From positions 89,365 to 153,364 of the forward strand of contig JACVGT010000019.1 of assembly GCA_018992685.1 (NCBI GenBank): DNA of 64,000 nucleotides, read 5' to 3'. Source of the stretch: Theionarchaea archaeon. GTDB lineage: Archaea; Methanobacteriota_B; Thermococci; Methanofastidiosales; SZ-28-30. This document shows positions 14,292 through 40,319 of this stretch, one piece after another. The notes under the pieces were generated by a model. That model was given only the letters and a program-made list of their open reading frames with translations, searched no databases and was not told where the DNA came from. Positions within the stretch are counted from its first letter, which is position 1. Each line of letters opens with the position of its first letter. Position numbers and translations under genes: made by a program.

Positions 14292-14804
14292 TCAGATAGG
14301 CTGAGAAGCCTCAATAGCCTCTCGGGCAAATTGGTCCTTCTTGCATGATATACAGTAAGATTCAATGTTGTTCCTGTCCTTATCAAGGAGTCCGACCTTT
14401 TCTATCTTCTTTCTGATCTCTTCCATGTGTCTCCTGGTAGTAATCACTTTCCCACATCCCTGACACAGGATAAGGTCATGTTCAATCTCATCATAGGACT
14501 CTGCCCTGTTTAAGGTGGCCATTTCAAACTTCTGGGTAAGGTTGATCCCCTCCCAGGGGCAGATATCCTGGCAGCTCCGGCAAAAAATGCACAACCCATG
14601 GTCGATTCTCATGGTCCTGGTCTTTTTCTCATCTACAATGGTGATGGCCTTTGGGGGGCACACCGCAGCGCAGGCGCCGCACCCAACGCACTCATCGGTG
14701 AACTCTGTCCTCCCTCTGAATCCTTCAGGGGCTGGAGAAGGCTCAAACGGATATTTTACTGTAAAAGGTTTCTTAAACAAGGAAAATAGTGCTTCAAGTT
14801 CCAT
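14292..14804 (-). CDS. Hydrogenase iron-sulfur subunit (MbhN/NuoI-like)
   Basis: Last gene of the hydrogenase operon; 170 residues. Two [4Fe-4S] motifs relay electrons to the small subunit: C39, C42, C45, C49 and C72, C75, C78, C82. The C-terminal third, absent from minimal NuoI, carries two further pairs, C114/C117 (CQGC) and C151/C154 (CISC), as in some formate-hydrogenlyase-type subunits, possibly a zinc site. It is cytoplasmic and docks on the peripheral arm. The start overlaps the NuoH-like stop. Confidence 0.9.
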   Translation of the reverse strand: MELEALFSLFKKPFTVKYPFEPSPAPEGFRGRTEFTDECVGCGACAAVCPPKAITIVDEKKTRTMRIDHGLCIFCRSCQDICPWEGINLTQKFEMATLNRAESYDEIEHDLILCQGCGKVITTRRHMEEIRKKIEKVGLLDKDRNNIESYCISCKKDQFAREAIEASQPI

Positions 14805-15688
14805 TAAATCACCACCCTTACGAGATCAATGACTGCCAGAACCGCCATGTATTTCCAGAAGAAAACAAAACTCTGTTCTGTCTTCACCCTGGCTGAAATG
14901 ACCTTGATAAAAATGAACAGGAGCCACAACAGCCCACCAGTAATCAAGAACATCCACCAGTTCTGCCAGAAGAACAGGATAACTACCAGAGAGATCACCG
15001 TAAACACTTTGACCTGGTTGGAAAGGGTGAAAATTGCCAACCTGTACCCGGAGTACTCCACCAGAGGTCCTCCCAGAATTTCCTGTTCGGCTTCTGGTAT
15101 GTCGAAGGGTTGCAACCCGATCTTGGCGGGTACAATGCTCAAGAAGGCAATGCAGGCAAAGGGAAGCTGGTAGAACAACATGCCGTGAACTTCCTGGGCC
15201 TCAGCTATTCCTGTCAAGGAAAAACTGCCTGCCCTCACTGCCACCGCCACAATGGAAATTGCCAGGGGCAGTTCATAGGCAAAGAGCTGGGTTACTTCTC
15301 TCGATCCTCCCACAGCGCCAAAGGGGCTGGCTGAAGAAAATCCTCCAACTGCCAGCATGATTGACGACATGTTCAGCACATAAATGACCACAATCACATC
15401 GCCAGCAAAGGACAGTCCCCACACCGGGAACAGCATGGGCACCACCAGGATAGAAGCCAGAGCAATGATGGGAGCCCAGGTGAACAGAGCGCCCGCTTTC
15501 TCAGGCCTAACACTGTCTTTGGACAGTAACTTCACGAAATCATAGAAGGGCTGCAAAAATGGTGGGCCACGTCTGTTCTGCATGCGTGCTCTCACCTTTC
15601 GGTACATCCCTGCATACAGGAACGTCATCACCGAGGTGAATAACAGCCCCGGAATGATGAAAATCGAAATCAATGGATTGAGACTCAT
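14804..15688 (-). CDS. Membrane anchor subunit of group 4 hydrogenase (MbhM/NuoH-like)
   Basis: A membrane protein of about 294 residues with roughly eight helices. The family signature follows helix 1: RARMQNRRGPPFLQPFYDFVKLL. A second signature, FDIPEAEQEILGGPLVEYSG, contains the acidic loop proposed to couple electron transfer with ion movement. A longer frame exists, but the ATG at 15688 has an AGGTGAT site before it and follows the large-subunit stop closely, so it is preferred. Confidence 0.92.
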   Translation of the reverse strand: MSLNPLISIFIIPGLLFTSVMTFLYAGMYRKVRARMQNRRGPPFLQPFYDFVKLLSKDSVRPEKAGALFTWAPIIALASILVVPMLFPVWGLSFAGDVIVVIYVLNMSSIMLAVGGFSSASPFGAVGGSREVTQLFAYELPLAISIVAVAVRAGSFSLTGIAEAQEVHGMLFYQLPFACIAFLSIVPAKIGLQPFDIPEAEQEILGGPLVEYSGYRLAIFTLSNQVKVFTVISLVVILFFWQNWWMFLITGGLLWLLFIFIKVISARVKTEQSFVFFWKYMAVLAVIDLVRVVI

Positions 15689-15692
15689 GATA

Positions 15693-16778
15693 TCACCTAT
15701 CCGTACAGCAGAAACACGGGTCAATGCTTGCCAGCGTAATAGGAACGTCACCCAGGGTGTCCCCCTCCAGCATCACCGGGACTGCCTGTACATTGGCATA
15801 TGTGGGGGCACGTATTTTCACCCGCTCAGGATAAAAGGTGCCGTTGGACCTGACATAGTGGAACACTTCTCCGCGAGGAGCTTCGTATCTTCCAACTCCT
15901 TCGCCAGGTGGGATTTCTTTCACTGGAACTGCTATTTCCTTTCCCTTCAACCCCTTGAGAGCTGCTACTGCCTGTCTGATGATTTTCACTGATTCGAAAA
16001 CCTCAAGGAGCCTGACTTTTGCCCTGGCCATATTATCTTCTTCATCCAGGACGATTTTCTCGAAGTCCACTCTATCATATGCAAGGTGTGGATCATCCTT
16101 CCTCACATCAACAGCATAGCCTGACGCTCGGGCCAGAGGACCTACTGTACACAGCCTCCGTGCATCGTCTCTGGGCAGTGTCCCAGTTCCTACCAGTCGT
16201 GCTCTGATGGTCCTGTTTCTCAGGAAAGAATCAATGTAGTGTTCTGTCCTGCGCTCCACAACCTCGAGAGCGGTCAGCAGACCCGGGATCTGCTTTTCAG
16301 TGATGTCCTTCCTGCATCCTCCAACAGTATTCCATGCGTAATGGTTCCTGTTACCCGTTATTGTTTCAAGCTGATCCAGAACGAATTCTCTGTCTCTCCA
16401 CGTGTACATGAACAGTGTTTCAATCCCTATTATTTCAGCAGCTATTCCCGCCCACAACAAGTGGGAGTGAATCCTTTCCAGCTCAGCAATGATCATCCTC
16501 GAGTATTCAGCTCTTTCAGGCAGTGTGACACCAGCAATGTCCTCTACTGCCTGTGTGAATGCCAGAGGATGGGACATGGAACAGATGCCGCAGATTCGTT
16601 CCACCAGTAGTATGTCCTGTTCATAGGTTTTTCTTTCTGCAAGCTTCTCTACGCCTCTGTGGTTGTATCCCATGGTAATATCTACGTTGATGACTTTTTC
16701 TCCTTCTGCATACACTTTCAAGCGCTCAGGTTCTGCCAGAGCCAGGTGCTGGGGTCCAAATTGTACAACGACATCCAT
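15693..16778 (-). CDS. Group 4 [NiFe] hydrogenase large subunit (MbhL/NuoD-like)
   Basis: A 361-residue catalytic subunit. Both nickel-binding cysteine pairs are intact: RICGIC near the N-terminus (C63, C66) and DPCFCC at the very end (C355, C358). An intact site means H2 production or oxidation is chemically possible; related complex I and Mbx-type subunits have altered motifs here. The protein ends only three residues after the last ligand, so no separate C-terminal processing peptide is visible, as in other group 4 enzymes. Between NuoC-like and NuoH-like genes, in Mbh order. Confidence 0.95.
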   Translation of the reverse strand: MDVVVQFGPQHLALAEPERLKVYAEGEKVINVDITMGYNHRGVEKLAERKTYEQDILLVERICGICSMSHPLAFTQAVEDIAGVTLPERAEYSRMIIAELERIHSHLLWAGIAAEIIGIETLFMYTWRDREFVLDQLETITGNRNHYAWNTVGGCRKDITEKQIPGLLTALEVVERRTEHYIDSFLRNRTIRARLVGTGTLPRDDARRLCTVGPLARASGYAVDVRKDDPHLAYDRVDFEKIVLDEEDNMARAKVRLLEVFESVKIIRQAVAALKGLKGKEIAVPVKEIPPGEGVGRYEAPRGEVFHYVRSNGTFYPERVKIRAPTYANVQAVPVMLEGDTLGDVPITLASIDPCFCCTDR

Positions 16779-16779
16779 T

Positions 16780-17199
16780 TCAATACCTCCTCAAAGGATA
16801 TTCTGTATAGTCATCAGGAAGGAACAGGTGCCGGGGATCGGGGTGATTGACCACAATGATACCCATCATTTCCATGGCTTCCCTCTCGTACCAGGCTGCA
16901 GATGGGTAGAAATCAGATATGGTCTCAATCCTGGGATTTCCCCGTGGAGCAGACGTCTTCAGGCTCACCTGCAGGGGGGTAATCTCGAAGTGATAGACCA
17001 GTTCCAGCTCTTCGCCCAGGTCCACAGAAGAGATCACTGAGAGGTGGCCTCCCATATCCTGAAAGAGCTTGACTGCCTGTCTGTGGGATCCATTCTGCAC
17101 CTTGATAAATACTCTGTTTCTCCGCGTCGGGGTAACCTCCAGCACATTCTCCCTGAGATGAGTTCTCAACATTTCTTTCAACTCCGGAACAGTGACCAT
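16780..17199 (-). CDS. Hydrogenase subunit MbhK/NuoC-like
   Basis: A 139-residue peripheral-arm subunit. The family motif lies near the C-terminus: ISDFYPSAAWYEREAMEMMG followed by HPDPRHLFLPDDY. It has no cofactor of its own and helps assemble the large and small subunits. It begins directly at the small-subunit stop and ends one base before the large-subunit start region, so it is translated as part of the operon. Confidence 0.9.
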   Translation of the reverse strand: MVTVPELKEMLRTHLRENVLEVTPTRRNRVFIKVQNGSHRQAVKLFQDMGGHLSVISSVDLGEELELVYHFEITPLQVSLKTSAPRGNPRIETISDFYPSAAWYEREAMEMMGIIVVNHPDPRHLFLPDDYTEYPLRRY

Positions 17200-17628
17200 T
17201 TACTCACCCCACAGAGCATTCAGTGCCGTGACAACCCCGTGCAGAATGGCCTGAGGCCTCGGTGGACATCCCGGAATGTATGCAGCCACCGGAATTACCT
17301 TGTCCGCAGGGCCATATGATGCATAGGTCTCATTGAAGATGCCTTTGGTGATGGCACAGGAACCAATGGCTACTGCAGCCTTTGGGTCCATGGTTTGCTC
17401 ATATAATCGTTTCAGTACATCCCTTGTCTTTAGTGTAATAATTCCAGTCACTACGATGATATCTGCATGACGAGGATTTGGCTTTAAGACTCCTCCAAAC
17501 CGTTCCACATCAAACCGGGGGGCAAGAGCGGCCAGAACTTCGATATCGCAGTTATTGCATGACCCGCAGCTCACGTGAAGCAGCCAGGGGGATTTCTTCC
17601 TGCAGTAATTCACCATTTTATCCAGCAT
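17200..17628 (-). CDS. Hydrogenase small subunit (MbhJ/NuoB-like)
   Basis: About 142 residues. It carries the cysteines for the proximal [4Fe-4S] cluster: CGSCNNC (C21, C24, C27), GSC (C91) and PGC (C121). This passes electrons to the nickel-iron site. A GTG lies five codons upstream, but the ATG at 17628 overlaps the stop of the preceding MrpD-like gene (TAATG), the usual coupling in this operon, and is preferred. Confidence 0.92.
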   Translation of the reverse strand: MLDKMVNYCRKKSPWLLHVSCGSCNNCDIEVLAALAPRFDVERFGGVLKPNPRHADIIVVTGIITLKTRDVLKRLYEQTMDPKAAVAIGSCAITKGIFNETYASYGPADKVIPVAAYIPGCPPRPQAILHGVVTALNALWGE

Positions 17629-19445
17629 TAAACCACCCTCCACAAATACACGATCACCACAACAAGAGTGAATACTACCCAGAACACGTAGTTCTGCAGC
17701 AGTCCGCTGTGTTCAGATTTCAGGTACCGGTAGAATCGGCCAAGCGGAGCCATGATACCATAGTACAGGTTTGAACCACCTATATTGACATAGTAGTCTT
17801 CTTCCCCACAGATATATACGTCGTCTCTGGCATCAGGCTTCTTGTCTGATTTGTCTGATTCTGGCGCCAACGCTTTCCCTGTCCTTAGGGTCAAGAACAC
17901 AAAGGCCATGAGAAACAGCAGTACCAGCGAGATCATGACAGGACTCCAGTACGCATATTCAAGGTTCAACCCCAGGTTGTAGGCACCCACGTCCACCGGG
18001 ACACCCAGGAGGGAAGAGGACGCTTTCCCTACCAGCGTCAGAGGCAGCCTGGGGTAGACGCCAAATATGATGCATGTTACCGCAAGGATACCCATGGGGA
18101 CCTTCATCAGGAAGGGAACATCTTTCACCTCTCTGAATTCCTCTTTGAGCTGGCCCAGGAATGCAGAGTCCAGAGCCTTCAAGAACGAGCTCAAGGTGCC
18201 AACACTGGCCAGGATCAGGACTACGGTGAAAAAGTAGTACTCCTTCTGGTAGGTACCCACGTAAAGCATCCACTTGCTGACGAACCCATTGAAGGGAGGG
18301 ACTCCTGAAATTGCCAGCGCCCCTATGAAAAAGCAGAACGTGGTAAAAGGCATCTTCTTGGAAAGTCCACCCATCCTGTCAAGGTCCCACGTGCCAATCC
18401 GGTAGAAAACAGCCCCTGCACACAGGAAGAGGAGCCCTTTGTATACGGCATTGTTCATGAGATGGAACAGCCCTCCTGAGACTCCCAGAGGTGTCGCCAG
18501 TCCGATACCTGCTATAATATAGCCGAGCTGGGAGACAGCGTGATAGGACAGCAGCCGTTTGAAGTCGTGCTGCACCAGAGCCATCATGACACCCACGAAG
18601 GCTGTAATCACGCCGAAGGTTGCAATCATAGGGCTCGTGGCATCCATGGCATCAAACACCACGTACAGGACACGGGCAAGAAGATAGACACCAGCCACCT
18701 TGAAGGTACCTGCCAGGAGCATGCCCGTGGGAGTGGGAGCTGCAGGGTAACTGTCAGCAGCCCAGAAATGGAGCGGTACAATCCCTGCCTTGAATCCGAA
18801 TCCCACAACAAAGAATGCCAGAGCAACAATGTCCACAGATGACATGACGATCTTTGACGTGAGGTCCACCATGTTCAGAGTCTGGTACTGGGCATACAGC
18901 AGTGCCACTCCAAACAGGATAAACGTGGATACGACACCACCCAACGTCAACAACTTGAAAGCAGCTTCCGCTGAATCCCATTTTCTGTGATATGACACCA
19001 GAGCATAGGTGGAAACTGACATGATCTCAAAGAAGACGTACAGGTTAAACATGTCCCCTGTGAGGACGACACCTGAAATTCCTGCAATCTGGAGACAGAA
19101 CAGCGTGTAAAACTTTCCTCTGCGGGGATCTTTCCTCATATAGGGGACAGCATACAGTGCAGAGAAAGAAGCCATTCCTGCTGCCACGCACGCTGCAAAG
19201 AGGGATAGTGCGTCAACATACAAGGTAATACCATAGGGGGGGCTCCTGTTACCCAGTGCATAGACAATCACATCACCAGAGAGAACCTGCGATATCATGG
19301 TCAGTCCGCATACCAGGCTCCCTACAAACGCCAGGAAGGGAATGTAATCCCGCAGCCGGCCTGACCCCAGTCCTACAAGGGGAGTTATGAACGCTGCAGA
19401 CAGAGGCAGCAAAACCATGAAAATGGGTGCATGTTCAGTAATCAT
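17628..19445 (-). CDS. MrpD/NuoL-like ion-pumping subunit with fused MbhI-like tail
   Basis: A 605-residue antiporter-like subunit with about 14-16 helices. The pumping residues are present: Glu in MFNLYVFFEIMSVSTYAL, Lys in GFGFKAGIVPLHFW, and Lys in FNGFVSKWMLY. After the usual end (about 510), a tail of about 90 residues carries YICGEEDYYVN, then a helix-loop and a final membrane helix. In Pyrococcus Mbh this tail is a separate small protein, MbhI; no separate MbhI gene exists here, so the two appear fused. It overlaps MrpC by four bases. Confidence 0.9.
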   Translation of the reverse strand: MITEHAPIFMVLLPLSAAFITPLVGLGSGRLRDYIPFLAFVGSLVCGLTMISQVLSGDVIVYALGNRSPPYGITLYVDALSLFAACVAAGMASFSALYAVPYMRKDPRRGKFYTLFCLQIAGISGVVLTGDMFNLYVFFEIMSVSTYALVSYHRKWDSAEAAFKLLTLGGVVSTFILFGVALLYAQYQTLNMVDLTSKIVMSSVDIVALAFFVVGFGFKAGIVPLHFWAADSYPAAPTPTGMLLAGTFKVAGVYLLARVLYVVFDAMDATSPMIATFGVITAFVGVMMALVQHDFKRLLSYHAVSQLGYIIAGIGLATPLGVSGGLFHLMNNAVYKGLLFLCAGAVFYRIGTWDLDRMGGLSKKMPFTTFCFFIGALAISGVPPFNGFVSKWMLYVGTYQKEYYFFTVVLILASVGTLSSFLKALDSAFLGQLKEEFREVKDVPFLMKVPMGILAVTCIIFGVYPRLPLTLVGKASSSLLGVPVDVGAYNLGLNLEYAYWSPVMISLVLLFLMAFVFLTLRTGKALAPESDKSDKKPDARDDVYICGEEDYYVNIGGSNLYYGIMAPLGRFYRYLKSEHSGLLQNYVFWVVFTLVVVIVYLWRVV

Positions 19446-19792
19446 TCTTTCAACCCCCTGATTTCTGTAATGTCCAGGGTGCCATAATGTCGGTAGAGGA
19501 CAATAGCTATACTCAAGGCAAGAGCAGTGACACTGAGCCCGATGACAATGCTGGTCAGCACCAGTGCCTGGGGCAAGGGATCTACCATGACAGCAGTTTC
19601 AGAGGTTACGTCAGGCAGGACCACAATGGGAGGTGACCCGCCCTGAACGTACCCTGTGGCAATAAGGAAATATTGAACCGCATAGTCCATCAGACTGAGT
19701 CCCACCACGATTTTGATGAGATTCTTCTTTACCATGACAGCATACAATCCAATGACAAATACAATAGTGCAGACGATATAGTCGATATTCAT
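19442..19792 (-). CDS. MrpC/MbhG-like (NuoK family) subunit
   Basis: A 116-residue protein with three membrane helices, homologous to MnhC/MrpC and NuoK. Helix 1 begins IDYIVCTIVFVIGLYAVMVK; later DPLPQALVLTSIVIGLSVTA matches the conserved MrpC segment. It joins the Na+/H+ antiporter half of the complex. The start codon overlaps the MrpB stop. Confidence 0.92.
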   Translation of the reverse strand: MNIDYIVCTIVFVIGLYAVMVKKNLIKIVVGLSLMDYAVQYFLIATGYVQGGSPPIVVLPDVTSETAVMVDPLPQALVLTSIVIGLSVTALALSIAIVLYRHYGTLDITEIRGLKE

Positions 19793-20217
19793 GGGGGACT
19801 CCTCCTCATGTTGTTGAAAATGGCTGTCAGCTCTGTCCCCACTTTAACACCAATTGCAATGTAGATCGGACCCAGAATCCCTGCGCTGAGCAACGTTCCT
19901 GGTTGTCCCAGTCCAACAGCATTCCACAGGAAATTTCCTCCTTTCAGTATGCCAATACACCCGAGGCCAATGAAACACAAGGCTGCTACACTTTCGAGAG
20001 CAGTCATCACTGATTCGGGAATTCTCAGTGTGCCAAATCCCAGGTAGAGCAGGATGATGCTTGAAGCAATGATGGTACCTCCCTGAAACCCACCTCCAGG
20101 TGTCAGATGGCCATGAACAAAGATATAGACCCCATACACAAAAGCCAGGGGGAAAACCACGCGGGTTATGCTCTTCACAATGACACTGGGTTCGCGGGGG
20201 TCCTCATTCTTTTTCAT
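19789..20217 (-). CDS. MrpB/MbhF-like subunit
   Basis: About 142 residues with four helices. The MnhB family signature is FVHGHLTPGGGFQGGTIIAS. The frame is open upstream to 20322, but that part overlaps the preceding gene and lacks family sequence; the ATG at 20217 (MKKNEDPREPS) is chosen, overlapping the MbhE-like gene by 14 bases. Confidence 0.9.
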   Translation of the reverse strand: MKKNEDPREPSVIVKSITRVVFPLAFVYGVYIFVHGHLTPGGGFQGGTIIASSIILLYLGFGTLRIPESVMTALESVAALCFIGLGCIGILKGGNFLWNAVGLGQPGTLLSAGILGPIYIAIGVKVGTELTAIFNNMRRSPP

Positions 20218-20485
20218 TGTCTTCCCTCCGCTTCCTCCAGAATAGTGCAGCCACTCCTGTCGTCGCAGTGAACAGGACAGTGACTTCTCCCAGCGTGTCA
20301 TATCCTCTATAGTCCAGCACAATATTCGTCACCAGGTTGGTGGCTCCGGCTTCTTCAAGTCCGTCTTCCAGGTAGTGCTCTCCGACCCCGATAGAATGGT
20401 CTCCAAACCTGTTGACACCAGTAACTGTGTAGATCAGAACTGACATCAGTAATCCCAGCAAGAGATAGCTCAGTGCACGCTTCAT
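20204..20485 (-). CDS. MbhE-like subunit (MrpA C-terminal part)
   Basis: A 93-residue membrane protein with two helices. The stretch TNIVLDYRGYDTLGEVTVLFTATTGV is the hallmark of the MrpA C-terminal (MbhE) segment. It overlaps its neighbours by a few bases at both ends. Confidence 0.88.
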   Translation of the reverse strand: MKRALSYLLLGLLMSVLIYTVTGVNRFGDHSIGVGEHYLEDGLEEAGATNLVTNIVLDYRGYDTLGEVTVLFTATTGVAALFWRKRREDNEKE

Positions 20486-20718
20486 TCTTCTGACCTCCGG
20501 GTATGGCTAATGGCTAAAAGCAGGATAAATGTGGACAGAGCAGCCCCAATAGCAACTTCTGTCATGGCTACATCTGGAGCCTGCAGCTGATAGAAGAGTA
20601 AAGCCAGGCACAGGCTGCACATCCCCAGAGACACGGCTGTATATATCAGATCTTTGAACTCTACGGCCACCAGCGCACTGGCAGCAAAGAGCACCAGCAA
20701 GATGAGATGTGAGATCAT
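20482..20718 (-). CDS. MbhD-like subunit (DUF4040, MrpA C-terminal part)
   Basis: A 78-residue protein with three helices. LLFYQLQAPDVAMTEVAIGA is the conserved DUF4040 segment, with a Glu thought to lie on the ion path. In many Mrp systems MbhD and MbhE are one polypeptide (MrpA C-terminus); here, as in Mbh, they are separate. Confidence 0.9.
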   Translation of the reverse strand: MISHLILLVLFAASALVAVEFKDLIYTAVSLGMCSLCLALLFYQLQAPDVAMTEVAIGAALSTFILLLAISHTRRSEE

Positions 20719-21041
20719 TCAAACTCCTCCTTGAACGCGTCATAACTCCCGATTTTCATGCGGGTTCCTGATCTGTATGCAGCCCGGGCTATTGCATGGG
20801 CAGATGTTGGATTTCCCAGGACAATGAAGACGATGATAATGACAGCTTTGATGGCCACTTCTCCCTGCATGAGGAGTGCCACACCCAGAAGCGTGCACAT
20901 GGCACCCAGCGTGGTGCATTTGGTGGCTGCATGCATCCGGGTGAACATGTCGGGAAGTCGAAGCAATCCAATAGCACCCACCAGGAGAAAGAAGGTGCCT
21001 ATTGCGATGAGAATATCTGCGATGAGAGTTCCTGCCATCAT
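20715..21041 (-). CDS. MrpG/MbhC-like subunit
   Basis: About 108 residues with three helices. Family signature: GLLRLPDMFTRMHAATKCTT and later GNPTSAHAIARAAYRSG. A longer frame runs to 21125, but the ATG at 21041 follows a GGAGGG site and overlaps the MrpF stop. Confidence 0.9.
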   Translation of the reverse strand: MMAGTLIADILIAIGTFFLLVGAIGLLRLPDMFTRMHAATKCTTLGAMCTLLGVALLMQGEVAIKAVIIIVFIVLGNPTSAHAIARAAYRSGTRMKIGSYDAFKEEFE

Positions 21042-21301
21042 AATCCTCCCTCCAAGTAACGTGCAATGGCAATAACAGCAATAAAACTCAGCAGCGCGTA
21101 GATAATTGCCACATCTATCAACCACGTTCTATTATAGACAACGCCAAGAACAACCAGGAGAGCAGTAGTAATGGTGGTAGCAGCATCCAGAGCAATGACC
21201 CGGTCCCCTGCTGTAGGACCTTTCACGGCTCTCAAGAATGAAAGCAGAAATGCGAAAGAAATGACAAATACTGCACCCTGCAGAAAAGAGAGTTCCATCA
21301 T
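21038..21301 (-). CDS. MrpF/MbhB-like subunit
   Basis: An 87-residue, three-helix protein. LRAVKGPTAGDRVIALDAATT is the MnhF family motif. It overlaps MrpE and MrpG by four bases at each end. Confidence 0.9.
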   Translation of the reverse strand: MMELSFLQGAVFVISFAFLLSFLRAVKGPTAGDRVIALDAATTITTALLVVLGVVYNRTWLIDVAIIYALLSFIAVIAIARYLEGGL

Positions 21302-21789
21302 GAAAACACCTTGTTCAAGAATCTCATGAATCGGCCAGTAATCATCTCTGCAGCTTCCTGTGGGTTATACGTTTGAATGTTCAGCCAGTGCACATAGAAA
21401 TTAGTGCCCACAACGTCCAGCGTAAGGGTCCCGGGAGTCAGAGTAATTGAATTTGCCAGAAGAGTCCTTCCGTAGTCTGACTGCAGGGATACAGGTACCC
21501 GGACGATTCCTGGGTTTATGGGCATTCTCGGATGGAGCACTCGATAGGCCACATCAAGGTTGGATTTGATGATCTCCCAGAGCAGGGCAGGGATATACAC
21601 GAGGAAGAAGACCACTCTCCTGGGATGAAGGCTCACAGCAGGGAACAGGTTCCTGGACAGGACTGCCACGATGAAAGCTGCAAGCAACCCCACTGCAAGA
21701 GGAGGATACCCCTGTTCCTGGATTTCAGACCAGGTCAGAAGAACCCACAGGATCAACGTTGCGATGAATGCAGAGATACATTGCTTCAT
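21298..21789 (-). CDS. MrpE/MbhA-like subunit
   Basis: A 163-residue membrane protein. After two N-terminal helices it carries the MnhE core: EIIKSNLDVAYRVLHP and LANSITLTPGTLTLDV, then YVHWLNI. First antiporter gene of the Mrp module. An AGGTG site lies before the ATG. It begins just after the CODH-like stop. Confidence 0.92.
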   Translation of the reverse strand: MKQCISAFIATLILWVLLTWSEIQEQGYPPLAVGLLAAFIVAVLSRNLFPAVSLHPRRVVFFLVYIPALLWEIIKSNLDVAYRVLHPRMPINPGIVRVPVSLQSDYGRTLLANSITLTPGTLTLDVVGTNFYVHWLNIQTYNPQEAAEMITGRFMRFLNKVFS

Positions 21790-21793
21790 AGGT

Positions 21794-22972
21794 TCACCTC
21801 AGAACTTCCACCACTTTGGTAGAGTCCATTTCCACTCTAATACCCGCGTCAGCCAGTTGATTCCGTACTGAAGGGGTTATAAACGGCATTGTTCCCATGA
21901 TCACAGGGATCTTTTGTGACGCCAGTGCAAGAGCAGCTGTCAACATCCTGGGGTCTCTCCACCTGGGCATGAGGACCGTGAGGGCTCGTATCCCCAGGAG
22001 TTTTGCCGGCTCGCAGCATCCCGCATTGATCACACAGGGGACCTGGAATTCGTTCATGAGAGCACATTGATGATCAGGATGTTCCAGCAGGCCACATGTC
22101 AAGTTCAGAACCATGAATTTCTGGCTGATCAACTGGTGAACGATGGCATCGAGGTTCCAGGTGCTCTTTCCAGACGCACAGCCCATGATTGCCACCACTC
22201 CCGCAATGAGACCAGAATCCACCGCCTTGTTGAGTGTTTCAGTGTCCACAGGATAACCCACTGTTGCACGTCGAGGAGTAACCTTTCTGAACGATGCCTG
22301 GTCCCTCCTGGAGAAATTTTCAACAGCAGTCTCACAGGCAGCAGCCACATCTCCACCTTGATACACATAGTCTATCATGTCGCCCGCTTCTTCAAGAATG
22401 TCAATTCCACCCAGCAGGGGAATCCCGAAATTCGAGGCAGCTTCCGCCCCTTCACACAGGGCACCTACAAGGTTAATCCCTCTGGCAGTGCGTCCCCTGG
22501 CCAGATCCCTCATTTTCTGACTTCTGGCCTGCTTTATTATGTCAGGAGAGTATACAGTGGTCACAATGTTCACTGCGTCCTTCTGTAAGACTCCAAGGCC
22601 AGACTCAACATTCCGAGGTTTTTTCTGATCTGACTGCCACTGGCCAACCAGCGTCTGCGAAGGTTCCAGAATGGAACCACTGGCTTTCACCAGATCCTGA
22701 ATAGTAACCCCTGCCTCATGGGTGTGAATCATCCTATCTAGTGAAAGAGGCACAGAGATTCCCACTCCATAATCAGTCAATCCCTTGAGGACATGCAGTC
22801 CCAGGTTCACAACATTCATACCTTCTGCATCAATCCCACAGGCCCCCACGTGGGGTTCTTCATCAAAAGGGTTTACAATACATGGCCCTAAATCACAATA
22901 CGTACACATCATACCGGCAGAAGCCAGCTCATTCTGAGGCTTCTGAGCCTGTAATCGATCCATTGTTTTCAT
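21794..22972 (-). CDS. Short CODH-like iron-sulfur protein lacking canonical C-cluster ligands
   Basis: A 392-residue homolog of Ni-CODH (CooS, usually about 620-640). The B-cluster motif is intact: C23, C26, C31, C45 (CX2CX4CX13C). The D-cluster cysteines are missing. For the C-cluster, four CooS cysteines have counterparts: C173 (LVGALCEGAE), C265 (IMGCASG), C293 (LTCG), C319 (NAGCC). The His ligand segment HGHNP is replaced by TTVYSP (138-143), the DVQC cysteine is absent (MIDYVYQGG), and the CooS catalytic Lys appears replaced by Arg (WRDPRM). CO oxidation is therefore doubtful. It sits between the CooF-like ferredoxin and the hydrogenase, implying it feeds or takes electrons there. Confidence 0.8.
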   Translation of the reverse strand: MKTMDRLQAQKPQNELASAGMMCTYCDLGPCIVNPFDEEPHVGACGIDAEGMNVVNLGLHVLKGLTDYGVGISVPLSLDRMIHTHEAGVTIQDLVKASGSILEPSQTLVGQWQSDQKKPRNVESGLGVLQKDAVNIVTTVYSPDIIKQARSQKMRDLARGRTARGINLVGALCEGAEAASNFGIPLLGGIDILEEAGDMIDYVYQGGDVAAACETAVENFSRRDQASFRKVTPRRATVGYPVDTETLNKAVDSGLIAGVVAIMGCASGKSTWNLDAIVHQLISQKFMVLNLTCGLLEHPDHQCALMNEFQVPCVINAGCCEPAKLLGIRALTVLMPRWRDPRMLTAALALASQKIPVIMGTMPFITPSVRNQLADAGIRVEMDSTKVVEVLR

Positions 22973-23433
22973 GCCTTTCCTCTCCTCTCTTTCATGATCT
23001 GTGAAAACTCACCATATACGAGAGCATTGGTGGGGCAGGCACGGACACATGCGGGTCCTCCTACATTCCTGCACAGGTCACACTTTACCATTATCTGTCC
23101 ACGGGAATCAGGTTCAATGATTCCAATGGGACAGGCCACACTGCACGATCTGCACCCGATACACAGACCATCATCGATAACCACGATGCCATCGTCTCCC
23201 TTTTCAATGGCGTCCACCGGGCAGGCTTCCATGCAGGGAGGAACCTCACAGTGACGGCAGCTGAGCACAACAGTCTGTGTATTATCACCCTTCAGGAAAA
23301 TCCGAGTCTTGGGAAGAAGAGGTGCAGTAAGAGCCTGGTATACCGTGTCTGCATGCTTCCATGCCATGGAACATGCTACTTCACAATTGCGGCAAGCCAC
23401 ACATCGCTCTGAATCATAATAAAGTGCTTTCAT
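22969..23433 (-). CDS. CooF-like ferredoxin with four [4Fe-4S] clusters
   Basis: First gene of the 15-gene operon; 154 residues. Sixteen cysteines form four cluster motifs: C11/C14/C17/C21, C59/C62/C67/C71, C91/C94/C97/C101 and C118/C121/C129/C133. This is the CooF/HycB pattern, which carries electrons between a catalytic subunit and a hydrogenase. Its stop overlaps the start of the CODH-like gene (ATGA), so the two are tightly coupled. Confidence 0.92.
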   Translation of the reverse strand: MKALYYDSERCVACRNCEVACSMAWKHADTVYQALTAPLLPKTRIFLKGDNTQTVVLSCRHCEVPPCMEACPVDAIEKGDDGIVVIDDGLCIGCRSCSVACPIGIIEPDSRGQIMVKCDLCRNVGGPACVRACPTNALVYGEFSQIMKERRGKA

Positions 23434-23469: not shown

Positions 23470-23987
23470 CGCATGAAAACACATGTCCTCCGTGGACCCC
23501 CATGTCTCCCCTCTCATCGGGCAATAGTATCCTAGAATCTGTATTTATCGTGTGGATGTGCCTTGTCAAATCCATGGTACCTCCTCACAGCCAGGTAGCC
23601 CACGCTGCTTCTGTATCTTGCCAGGCTATCGATTTCAGCACAGACAATGATCTGGAAAAGTGTCAACGAAAGAAGAGAAAGCATTCTCCTGGGTGTGAAA
23701 GATTACGATACGATTCCTGGGTTGAAAGGTATTGCCTGTTCCCGCCCCAGGTTCGACAGCATGCCACGGATTATCAGTATCTGTAGAACCCAACTCCTGA
23801 ACGTGGGTAGAGAATGGTTACGAGCTTCTTTCCCTCAAGAAGTATGACTACTCCTCTTTCAGTCTCAGCTGGGCGATCACTCATAGGGCAGGCCTCGCAC
23901 CCTGACCGGGGAAAAGTTTTTATGCTCACCTCCATCATGTAATAACGCTAAGAGTTATTGATTAACAACATCGGCCCGAGGCACACC
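23470..23987. other. Non-coding stretch between hydrogenase operon and dacZ
   Basis: About 520 bases. A short coding-like stretch at roughly 23640-23790 reads VNERRESILLGVKDYDTIPG and may be a gene remnant; I cannot assign a family. At the right end there is a TATA-like GTTTTTATGC (23916-23925) and an inverted repeat AATAAC/GTTATT (23941-23959). Confidence 0.35.
23941..23959. promoter_or_regulatory. Inverted repeat at the predicted dacZ transcription start
   Basis: AATAAC-GCTAAGA-GTTATT, perfect 6-base arms with 7 bases between. It lies about 25 bases downstream of a TATA-like element and 29 bases before the dacZ ATG, a fitting place for a repressor site or a leader hairpin. Confidence 0.35.
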
Positions 23988-24788
23988 ATGAGCAAAGAAC
24001 TGCTGATCCAGAAAGGCAAAGAAATGCTGCTCGAAACGGGAGCCAAAGCTCTGCTGTTGTATGTTGAATCAGATTCAGATTTGGGACTTGCGCCTGAGAA
24101 CACCATTTTTGTGTATGACAACAAGAAGTTCAGTGAAATTGATGACACGGGAGTTCTCATTCCACTGAACGTAAGTCCTGAAGAGAGAATGAACCTCGCT
24201 ATTGCCGGAGCCATGGAAAAAGGCCTGCTCCACAAGAATGACAAAGTGATATACGTGAATAATAACAGTATTTCATTAAAAACAGCGAAAGAACAAATGG
24301 ATAAAGGGATATACAAGATCCTGTTCACTGCCGCAAATATTGACCCTGACGTGGTCAAAGAAGTCCTGGAAATCGCTGTTGAATTGGGGAAGAAAGGGCG
24401 AGAAGGAAAGCCTGTAGGAAGCACCTTCATCATTGGAGACTCAGGAGAAGTCATGAACAGGTCAACTCAGATCACATACAATCCCTTTCAGGGGAGCATG
24501 GTCAATATTCAGGACGACGTGGTGCGCAGCATGATAAAGGAGTATTCAAGGTTGGATGGAGCTTTTATCATTAGTGGCAAAGGGAAGATCATTGCGGCAG
24601 CACGATTTCTTGAATGCGGAAAGGAAGGAATCAAGATGCCCAAAGGATTGGGTGCTCGTCACATGGCTGCAGCATGGATAACCAAGAAGACAGATAGCAT
24701 TGGTGTTGTCCTCTCAGAATCAGATAATATGATTCGTGTCTTCTGGGACGGTGAGATGATTGAAGAGCTCGATCCTGAGAAGTTGTAG
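23988..24788 (+). CDS. dacZ: Diadenylate cyclase DacZ
   Basis: An archaeal c-di-AMP synthase of about 266 residues, making c-di-AMP from two ATP. The N-terminal part (1-140) is the archaeal-specific nucleotide-binding-like domain. The C-terminal DAC domain has DGAFIISGKGKIIAAARFLE (DGA at 190-192) and LGARHMAAAWITKKTDSIGV (RH motif near 224). Length matches DacZ rather than bacterial DisA, which carries a DNA-binding domain. The frame extends ten codons upstream, but MSKELL fits family starts. An MscS channel gene follows within ten bases, linking the signal to osmotic control. Confidence 0.92.
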   Translation: MSKELLIQKGKEMLLETGAKALLLYVESDSDLGLAPENTIFVYDNKKFSEIDDTGVLIPLNVSPEERMNLAIAGAMEKGLLHKNDKVIYVNNNSISLKTAKEQMDKGIYKILFTAANIDPDVVKEVLEIAVELGKKGREGKPVGSTFIIGDSGEVMNRSTQITYNPFQGSMVNIQDDVVRSMIKEYSRLDGAFIISGKGKIIAAARFLECGKEGIKMPKGLGARHMAAAWITKKTDSIGVVLSESDNMIRVFWDGEMIEELDPEKL

Positions 24789-24794
24789 GAGGTG

Positions 24795-25619
24795 ATGCTG
24801 ATTTCATTTATTGAGGAATGGTTTGGACAAGTGATCAATCAACTGGAAGAACTGATCCCTCGACTGGTTAAATTCCTGGGAATCCTCATAGTCGCCTATA
24901 TTCTGGGGAGAATTCTCGCCTGGCTGGTAGCCACAATTCTTCGCAAACTGGAGTTTGAGCGGCTGACCAAGAAATCAGAGGCAGAGAGAATTGCACGACG
25001 ATTCGGCATGTCGTTAATTGGACTGATTGGATCGGTTGTGAAGTGGACCATTTATCTGATCGGGCTGCAGGTGGCTGTTGAAGCTGCTGGTCTTGATATT
25101 CTCAATCGGTTGATGCGGGGGATTGTCAGTTACATGCCCAACCTCATTCTGGCTCTAGCTATCTTCATTGTGGGAATACTGATAGCTGAGAAAGTGGGCA
25201 ACTTTGTGCAGGGTCTGGCCGAAGATGAAAAGGTTCCTCGATTCTGGATCCTGGGAAACCTTGTGCGGTACACAATATATCTGGTCGTAATGATTATGGC
25301 CCTCTCACAACTGAAGATATCCACTGATGTCCTGATAATCGTTACCGGTTCGATCTTTGCTGCCATCGGGTTGATTGTAGTCATTAGTTTGAGAGATGTT
25401 GGACCAAACGTTGCTGCAGGGATCCATTTGCTGTACGAAAAGACATTGAACGTCGGAGATACAGTCAAAGTCGGCCGGTATGAAGGGATCATTGAAGATA
25501 TTGGCATTGTGAAATCTATCATAAAGAATGAAGAGGGAGAGTTCATTGTCATCCCCAACTCACAGTTGATGAGAAGCATCATAATAAAGAAACTGTCTCC
25601 TGAAGAAGCACTGGAGTAG
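24795..25619 (+). CDS. MscS-family mechanosensitive channel
   Basis: About 274 residues. Several membrane helices (about 20-45, 75-100, 110-135, 160-210) are followed by the MscS beta domain: GPNVAAGIHLLYEKTLNVGD, then YEGIIEDIGI and IVIPNSQLM. The C-terminal alpha/beta domain of E. coli MscS is absent, as in small archaeal MscS proteins. GGAGGTG overlaps the start region, so the exact start (GTG 24792 or ATG 24795) is uncertain. Co-transcription with dacZ suggests a joint role in osmotic balance. Confidence 0.88.
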   Translation: MLISFIEEWFGQVINQLEELIPRLVKFLGILIVAYILGRILAWLVATILRKLEFERLTKKSEAERIARRFGMSLIGLIGSVVKWTIYLIGLQVAVEAAGLDILNRLMRGIVSYMPNLILALAIFIVGILIAEKVGNFVQGLAEDEKVPRFWILGNLVRYTIYLVVMIMALSQLKISTDVLIIVTGSIFAAIGLIVVISLRDVGPNVAAGIHLLYEKTLNVGDTVKVGRYEGIIEDIGIVKSIIKNEEGEFIVIPNSQLMRSIIIKKLSPEEALE

Positions 25620-39431: not shown

Positions 39432-40319
39432 CTAATAGTATTGGTTGGGCTCCCTGGGCGCATAATCTCCTGTACCCGACCCGCCACTCGAGCTGGATGA
39501 CGAATCATTACTAGTTGGTGGAGGGTCATCGCCTGGAGTCGGAACTGGAACAAAATCATCACCCACTCTCTTGAATATCTGCTTACTGCCATTGCCGAAA
39601 GTCACAGTATATGTATCATCACCAGAATTGTATGCAACATTATATCCATCCTGTACAGCGATTCCAGCCTCTACCATATACTCTGCGATAGCATTAGCGA
39701 GGAGAACAGCGTCTTCTTCACTCGATTCTCTATCTTGATTTGTAGCAATCATGGCACTAATTACGGCGAGAATTACGGCGACAATTATGGCGGCAATTAT
39801 GCCAATGATAAGTTGGTTGGTATTGGGATGATCTATCAACCATTCACTTAGAGCAGTGGCAACTCCGCTCAGAAATCCATAGAGACCCAGACCTACAACT
39901 TCTCCAGCTGCCCACATACCAATGGGAATTGCAGCACATCCAACCCAAAACCAGAAGATAAGGGGCTCATCAGTAATCTCAACGTCTACATACGCTATAT
40001 TGTCCACATTTTGACTCCATGTCCAGGTTTTACCCAGGTTCTTTTCCCTGTCACAAAAGATGGGATCTCTTCCATCTGGATCTACGAACTTCAAAGGATT
40101 ATTGAGGCAATAGGCGTACCGGTTGAGAGTCTGAGGGGCTTTCATGTAGCCCCCAGACAAATCTCGAGTTATGAACCTCCCCAGATCAGGGTCATAGTAG
40201 CGAGCACCAAAGTAATATAGGCCAGTCTCATCTCTCTCCCTTCCAGTAAACAGGTAATCCTCTGATCCTTCCTCAATCCCAGTCTCCCCAAATGGATGAT
40301 ATGTACATTTCCGTGAAGC
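39432..40319 (-). pseudogene. Orphan C-terminal fragment of an RHS-repeat protein
   Basis: The open part reads YHPFGETG, FTGRERDETGLYYFGARYYD, DPDLGRFITRDLSGGY and RYAYCLNNPLKFVDPDGRDP, which is the RHS-repeat core boundary. The following about 220 residues are a variable tail with membrane helices (WFWVGCAAIPIGMWAAGEVV and IIGIIAAIIVAVILAVISAM) and a Ser/Gly/Pro-rich end. Upstream the frame ends at a TGA (40320), and no RHS repeats are found before it. The large repeat-bearing body, about 1000 or more residues in whole proteins, is missing, so this is a decayed or displaced tail. Confidence 0.7.

Follow-up and report, generated by a model that had tools for sequence, protein, structure and literature searches.

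Tentatively, and at somewhat short of an even chance, we propose that, in a sediment archaeon, a hydrogenase of the Mrp-Mbh type has a reused CO dehydrogenase (CODH) scaffold as a redox subunit, which does not act on CO and would exchange electrons with the hydrogenase through a ferredoxin. The CooS-like protein concerned (P0001) is encoded in a window of 64,000 nucleotides, which is the whole stretch of DNA that was analysed and belongs to a 3.03-Mb archaeal metagenome-assembled genome (contig C15, about 91% complete). The first-pass annotation had described a CooS homolog of 392 residues, whose gene is coupled by an ATGA overlap to that of a CooF-like ferredoxin and lies at the head of an operon for an energy-conserving hydrogenase. 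Both open reading frames were recovered and overlap by these four bases (Table 1), and the downstream Mrp/Mbh operon is complete with intact [NiFe] motifs. P0001 scores 80.1 bits against the Pfam family Prismane (PF03063, E=1.8e-22), which is above the gathering cut-off of 27, and 90 bits against the NCBI CODH equivalog TIGR01702 (E=1e-25), which is below the cut-off of 478; CODHs in the PDB are matched with E=3e-19. The protein is a member of the superfamily of CODHs and hybrid cluster proteins (HCPs), and this assignment is far above chance. Comparison with the homolog of a congener (G001; 86% identity) yields a dN/dS of 0.067, which shows that P0001 is under purifying selection. Since ligand pattern and operon recur in the congener, and in view of this dN/dS value, an assembly artefact as the origin of the locus is unlikely.

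Table 1. Genes of the CooS-like protein, its ferredoxin and the Mbh operon in the window
Feature	Position	Strand	Remark
CooF/HycB-like polyferredoxin, 154 aa, 16 Cys (four [4Fe-4S] motifs)	22969..23433	(-)	first gene of the operon
CooS-like protein P0001, 392 aa	21794..22972	(-)	predicted CODH core fold; B-cluster kept; C-site C173/C265/C293/C320; no D-cluster
MbhA / MrpE	21298..21789	(-)
MbhB / MrpF	21038..21301	(-)
MbhC / MrpG	20715..21041	(-)	start by inspection
MbhD-like small membrane subunit	20482..20718	(-)	by position and sequence
MbhE-like membrane subunit	20204..20485	(-)
MbhF / MrpB	19789..20217	(-)	start by inspection
MbhG / MrpC	19442..19792	(-)
MbhH / MrpD antiporter-like subunit	17628..19445	(-)	C-terminal extension may stand for MbhI
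MbhJ, hydrogenase small subunit	17200..17643	(-)
MbhK, 30 kDa subunit	16780..17199	(-)
MbhL, [NiFe] catalytic subunit	15693..16778	(-)	RICGIC and DPCFCCTDR intact; without C-terminal maturation extension
MbhM, NADHdh membrane anchor	14804..15688	(-)	start by inspection
MbhN, two-cluster ferredoxin subunit	14292..14804	(-)

A structure prediction, which had been suggested as a check of the annotation, points to the same superfamily. The AlphaFold2 model of P0001 has a pLDDT of 80.8 and a pTM of 0.80 and was built from an alignment of 15 sequences including true CODHs, which may bias it towards the CODH fold. It matches the CODH of Thermococcus AM4 (6t7j) with a Z-score of 27.0 and an rmsd of 2.6 Å over 381 residues, CooS-V with Z-scores of 24.9-25.1 and a class III HCP with a Z-score of 24.3. 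P0001 is thereby predicted to possess the full CODH core minus some segments. Residues 1-40, which contain three of the four B-cluster cysteines, have a pLDDT below 50. The model of one member from a sister family is alike (pTM 0.81, Z-scores up to 29.4).

The metal ligands were mapped using a MAFFT alignment with Thermococcus CODHs and are numbered according to CODH-II of C. hydrogenoformans. All four cysteines of the B-cluster are kept (C23, C26, C31 and C45), and the D-cluster is lost, with N14 and M22 at the positions of Cys39 and Cys47; both had been read correctly in the first-pass annotation. The D-cluster is also absent from some accepted CODH groups (PMC6344411). Only four of the six C-cluster ligands (one histidine and five cysteines) remain, namely Cys295 (C173), Cys446 (C265), Cys476 (C293) and Cys526 (C320). 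His261 is replaced by Y141, and the position of Cys333 falls inside a deletion of around 43 residues, which agrees with the earlier remark that the C-cluster histidine and the cysteine of the DVQC motif are gone. Three of the four C-type cysteines named at that time could be retained; the fourth, C319, is an additional residue, and its neighbour C320 aligns with Cys526 (GSCV/GCCE). The acid-base pair is lost as well: His93 corresponds to Y68, and Lys563 is replaced by R342, as had been noticed for the catalytic lysine. Judging from these ligands, binding of a normal C-cluster is not to be expected. The hybrid cluster of HCPs likewise lacks its ligands, as the equivalents of His261 and Cys333 are missing and position 295 is not a glutamate. 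The shortened loop preceding C320 contains additional histidine and cysteine residues (H298, H301, C303, C313 and C319), which are candidates for substitute ligands of a rebuilt C-site.

The genes for P0001 and the ferredoxin are co-directional with the complete Mbh operon from A to N, whose gene order is the same as in the Mbh cluster of P. furiosus. Together with the Mrp module, the subunits J-K-L-M-N and both Ni-binding CxxC motifs identify an Mbh-type group 4 [NiFe] hydrogenase, and the nearest PDB match of MbhL is Mbh (6cfw). HypD is encoded in the same genome; MbhL stops directly after the second motif and should therefore need no C-terminal cleavage. The ferredoxin, whose 16 cysteines form four motifs, is 38-40% identical to Thermococcus CooF, and the cluster path through ferredoxin, MbhN and MbhJ appears complete by motif. 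In a phylogeny built from 29 large subunits, in which the label "formate-type" is inferred, the CODH- and formate-linked forms of Thermococcales group together (98/98) and the MbhL of the window lies outside of this clade, its own place not being fixed (support 81/79). Descent from the CODH-linked hydrogenase of Thermococcus is thus not supported, and the link is one of operon analogy and not of direct descent of the complex. The first-pass annotation had relied on the CooS-CooF-hydrogenase-Mrp logic of Thermococcus, which holds for gene content. The genome encodes a second group 4 large subunit (L103:1643-2743), which also ends right after DPCxxCTxR without a maturation peptide and probably represents the remnant of Ehb that has been described from Theionarchaea (PMC9635834).

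Members of the P0001 family were found in six of 396 genomes from 216 genera, and the six carriers all belong to one order. A scan of GTDB contigs returned the same five relatives, although only two peptide patterns were used and distant relatives may have been missed; among the viral contigs and plasmids searched, there were none. The Mbh-linked form is known from two genomes only: G001, the sole congener found, retains the P0001 homolog and the Mbh operon together with the terminal part of the ferredoxin gene. The remaining four genomes belong to one sister family, f3, and their proteins are 28-32% identical to P0001, share its deletions and form one clade with it (100/100). They keep the B-cluster and C320 and have a lysine at the position of R342; however, C173 is replaced by tyrosine or alanine, and C265 and C293 are replaced by alanine. 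No Mbh or CooF neighbour is present in the available sequence around these four genes, although two of the contigs end close upstream. The suggested check whether relatives always sit with Mbh genes was therefore negative for four of the six members found. Since the sister family shares the deletions but shows no Mbh neighbours, the loss of the CO site is probably older than the Mbh link, which is lineage-specific.

Further genes accompany the family. A DacZ-type diadenylate cyclase and an MscS channel are encoded divergently from the operon (window 23958-25619), and in each of the four sister-family relatives (L022-L025) this pair lies no more than a few kb from the CooS-like gene, which supports orthology. 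One relative lies near CofE (G006), and in G003 a fusion of a small subunit with FrhB and an FrhA-like subunit, i.e., an F420-reducing hydrogenase set, is divergent from the CooS-like gene (L022:8405-11660). Within the genome of the window, which is about 91% complete, neither CdhC nor a further PF03063 protein was found. The congener, as read from sequence, has what looks like a complete CODH/ACS gene cluster, including CdhA and a CooC-like gene (L102:8090-14260), and a replacement of a lost CODH by P0001 is thus not supported. Elsewhere in the window (39432-40160), a protein begins like an RHS-repeat core (NRYAYCLNNPLKFVDPDGRD) and differs in its C-terminal part.

Several known systems resemble the locus. 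The 16-gene Mrp-Mbh-Codh cluster of T. onnurineus makes H2 from CO (PMC4731540) and likewise combines a CooF-like ferredoxin, a CooS homolog, Mbh and Mrp (TON_1017-1031); however, the Thermococcus CooS proteins compared have around 630-660 amino acids and complete D, B and C motifs, P0001 is far shorter, with a broken C-site and no D-cluster, and the catalytic subunit of its hydrogenase lies outside the clade of the CODH-linked Thermococcus hydrogenases. CooS-V (structural group D-1) is also a CODH scaffold that lost CO chemistry by ligand change, and with C295E it has no CO activity (PMC9311411). In contrast to P0001, which keeps Cys295 and lacks His261 and Cys333, CooS-V is of full length, keeps the latter two and has glutamate in place of Cys295. 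Full-length CooS of this type, with NIETGQE at Cys295 and with His261 and Cys333 kept, is encoded in the sister families f3 and f4 (L066:8869-10773, L068:8134-10143, L069:415-2316), and CODH scaffolds may therefore have acquired new roles on two occasions within this order. Class III HCPs share the superfamily fold and homologous cluster sites but keep the equivalents of His261 and Cys333 and add glutamate ligands, none of which is found in P0001. The nearest named short form is mini-CooS (clade G), which has a tyrosine at the acid-base histidine position as does P0001; mini-CooS was reported with a complete metal motif (PMC8776680). In a survey of 1942 Ni-CODHs, [NiFe]-hydrogenase neighbours were seen only for groups with complete motifs, which was taken as a sign that CODH/hydrogenase coupling requires complete motifs; no group in its Table 2 keeps Cys295 and lacks both His261 and Cys333 (PMC6344411). 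By gene neighbourhood, the P0001 locus is an exception to this rule. The published surveys required 550 amino acids and no motif deletions (PMC6344411) or 400 amino acids (PMC8776680), and these filters would have excluded P0001.

It is conceivable, though rather unlikely, that P0001 is an enzyme in its own right and acts on a new substrate. A four-cysteine cluster at the C-site would then expose an open iron at the former Cys333 site, and substrate oxidation would yield H2, or a reduction would be driven by H2. Elsewhere, CODH or formate dehydrogenase serves as the head of Mbh operons. A CODH head is known from T. onnurineus (PMC4731540), and the extra histidines and cysteines before C320 could complete such a site. 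All 12 cysteines of P0001 are conserved in the congener, but at 86% identity this is weak evidence, and the sister family lost the equivalents of C173, C265 and C293 and yet kept the fold. The more specific version, in which the four-cysteine Fe-S site oxidises a low-potential substrate and thereby drives H2 evolution and ion pumping via Mbh, is unlikely; if true, P0001 would be a CODH-descended respiratory head that makes no use of CO. The first-pass annotation had suggested another substrate or cofactor from the altered site, which is not established given the loss of three of the four C-site cysteines in relatives without Mbh or ferredoxin neighbours; what stands of its interpretation is a CooS homolog without a normal C-cluster next to a CooF/HycB-type ferredoxin and a complete Mbh/Mrp operon in both genomes of the genus.

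Retention of the B-cluster beside an eroded active site, and the existence of relatives outside hydrogenase operons, would also suit gating of the hydrogenase by P0001 as a redox sensor or a regulatory subunit, and regulatory roles were proposed for CODH clades C and D (PMC13056359). The overlap with a four-cluster ferredoxin gene and the presence of the whole Mbh operon favour a structural subunit, however, and a sensor is improbable. A working CODH with substitute ligands, forming a CO-to-H2 complex as in Thermococcus, would be in line with the operon content of T. onnurineus and the additional residues near the site, but with His261, Cys333, Lys563, the acid-base histidine and the D-cluster all lost, it is highly improbable. 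Turnover of hydroxylamine is known from HCPs and from CooS-V (PMC9311411), and the class III HCP is structurally close to the model; the HCP equivalents of His261, Cys333 and the glutamate at position 295 are all missing, however, which leaves a scavenger that reduces hydroxylamine or NO with ferredoxin electrons as the least probable of these readings.

A role in electron relay or docking is preferred to a new substrate site, given that the fold and the B-cluster persist in the sister family while most C-site cysteines are dropped there. From the gene anatomy, its conservation and the predicted fold, we infer an electron flow in which the B-cluster of P0001 would connect the four ferredoxin clusters with a soluble partner or a small substrate; the old C-site (C173/C265/C293/C320) may, in this genus, hold an ordinary Fe-S cluster that joins the relay. 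From the ferredoxin, electrons would travel via MbhN and MbhJ and reach the [NiFe] site for the production of H2, and the Mrp module would move Na+/H+; oxidation of CO by P0001 would play no part. Counting against the relay, the four kept C-site cysteines and the dN/dS of 0.07 would also agree with an active site for a new substrate. In this family, the scaffold and the B-cluster may matter more than the catalytic metal site. As P0001 lacks the two ligands, His261 and Cys333, which both catalytic CODHs and HCPs keep, it is well suited to test what scaffold and B-cluster can achieve by themselves in energy conservation, and this within an archaeal order that is a relative of Thermococcales.
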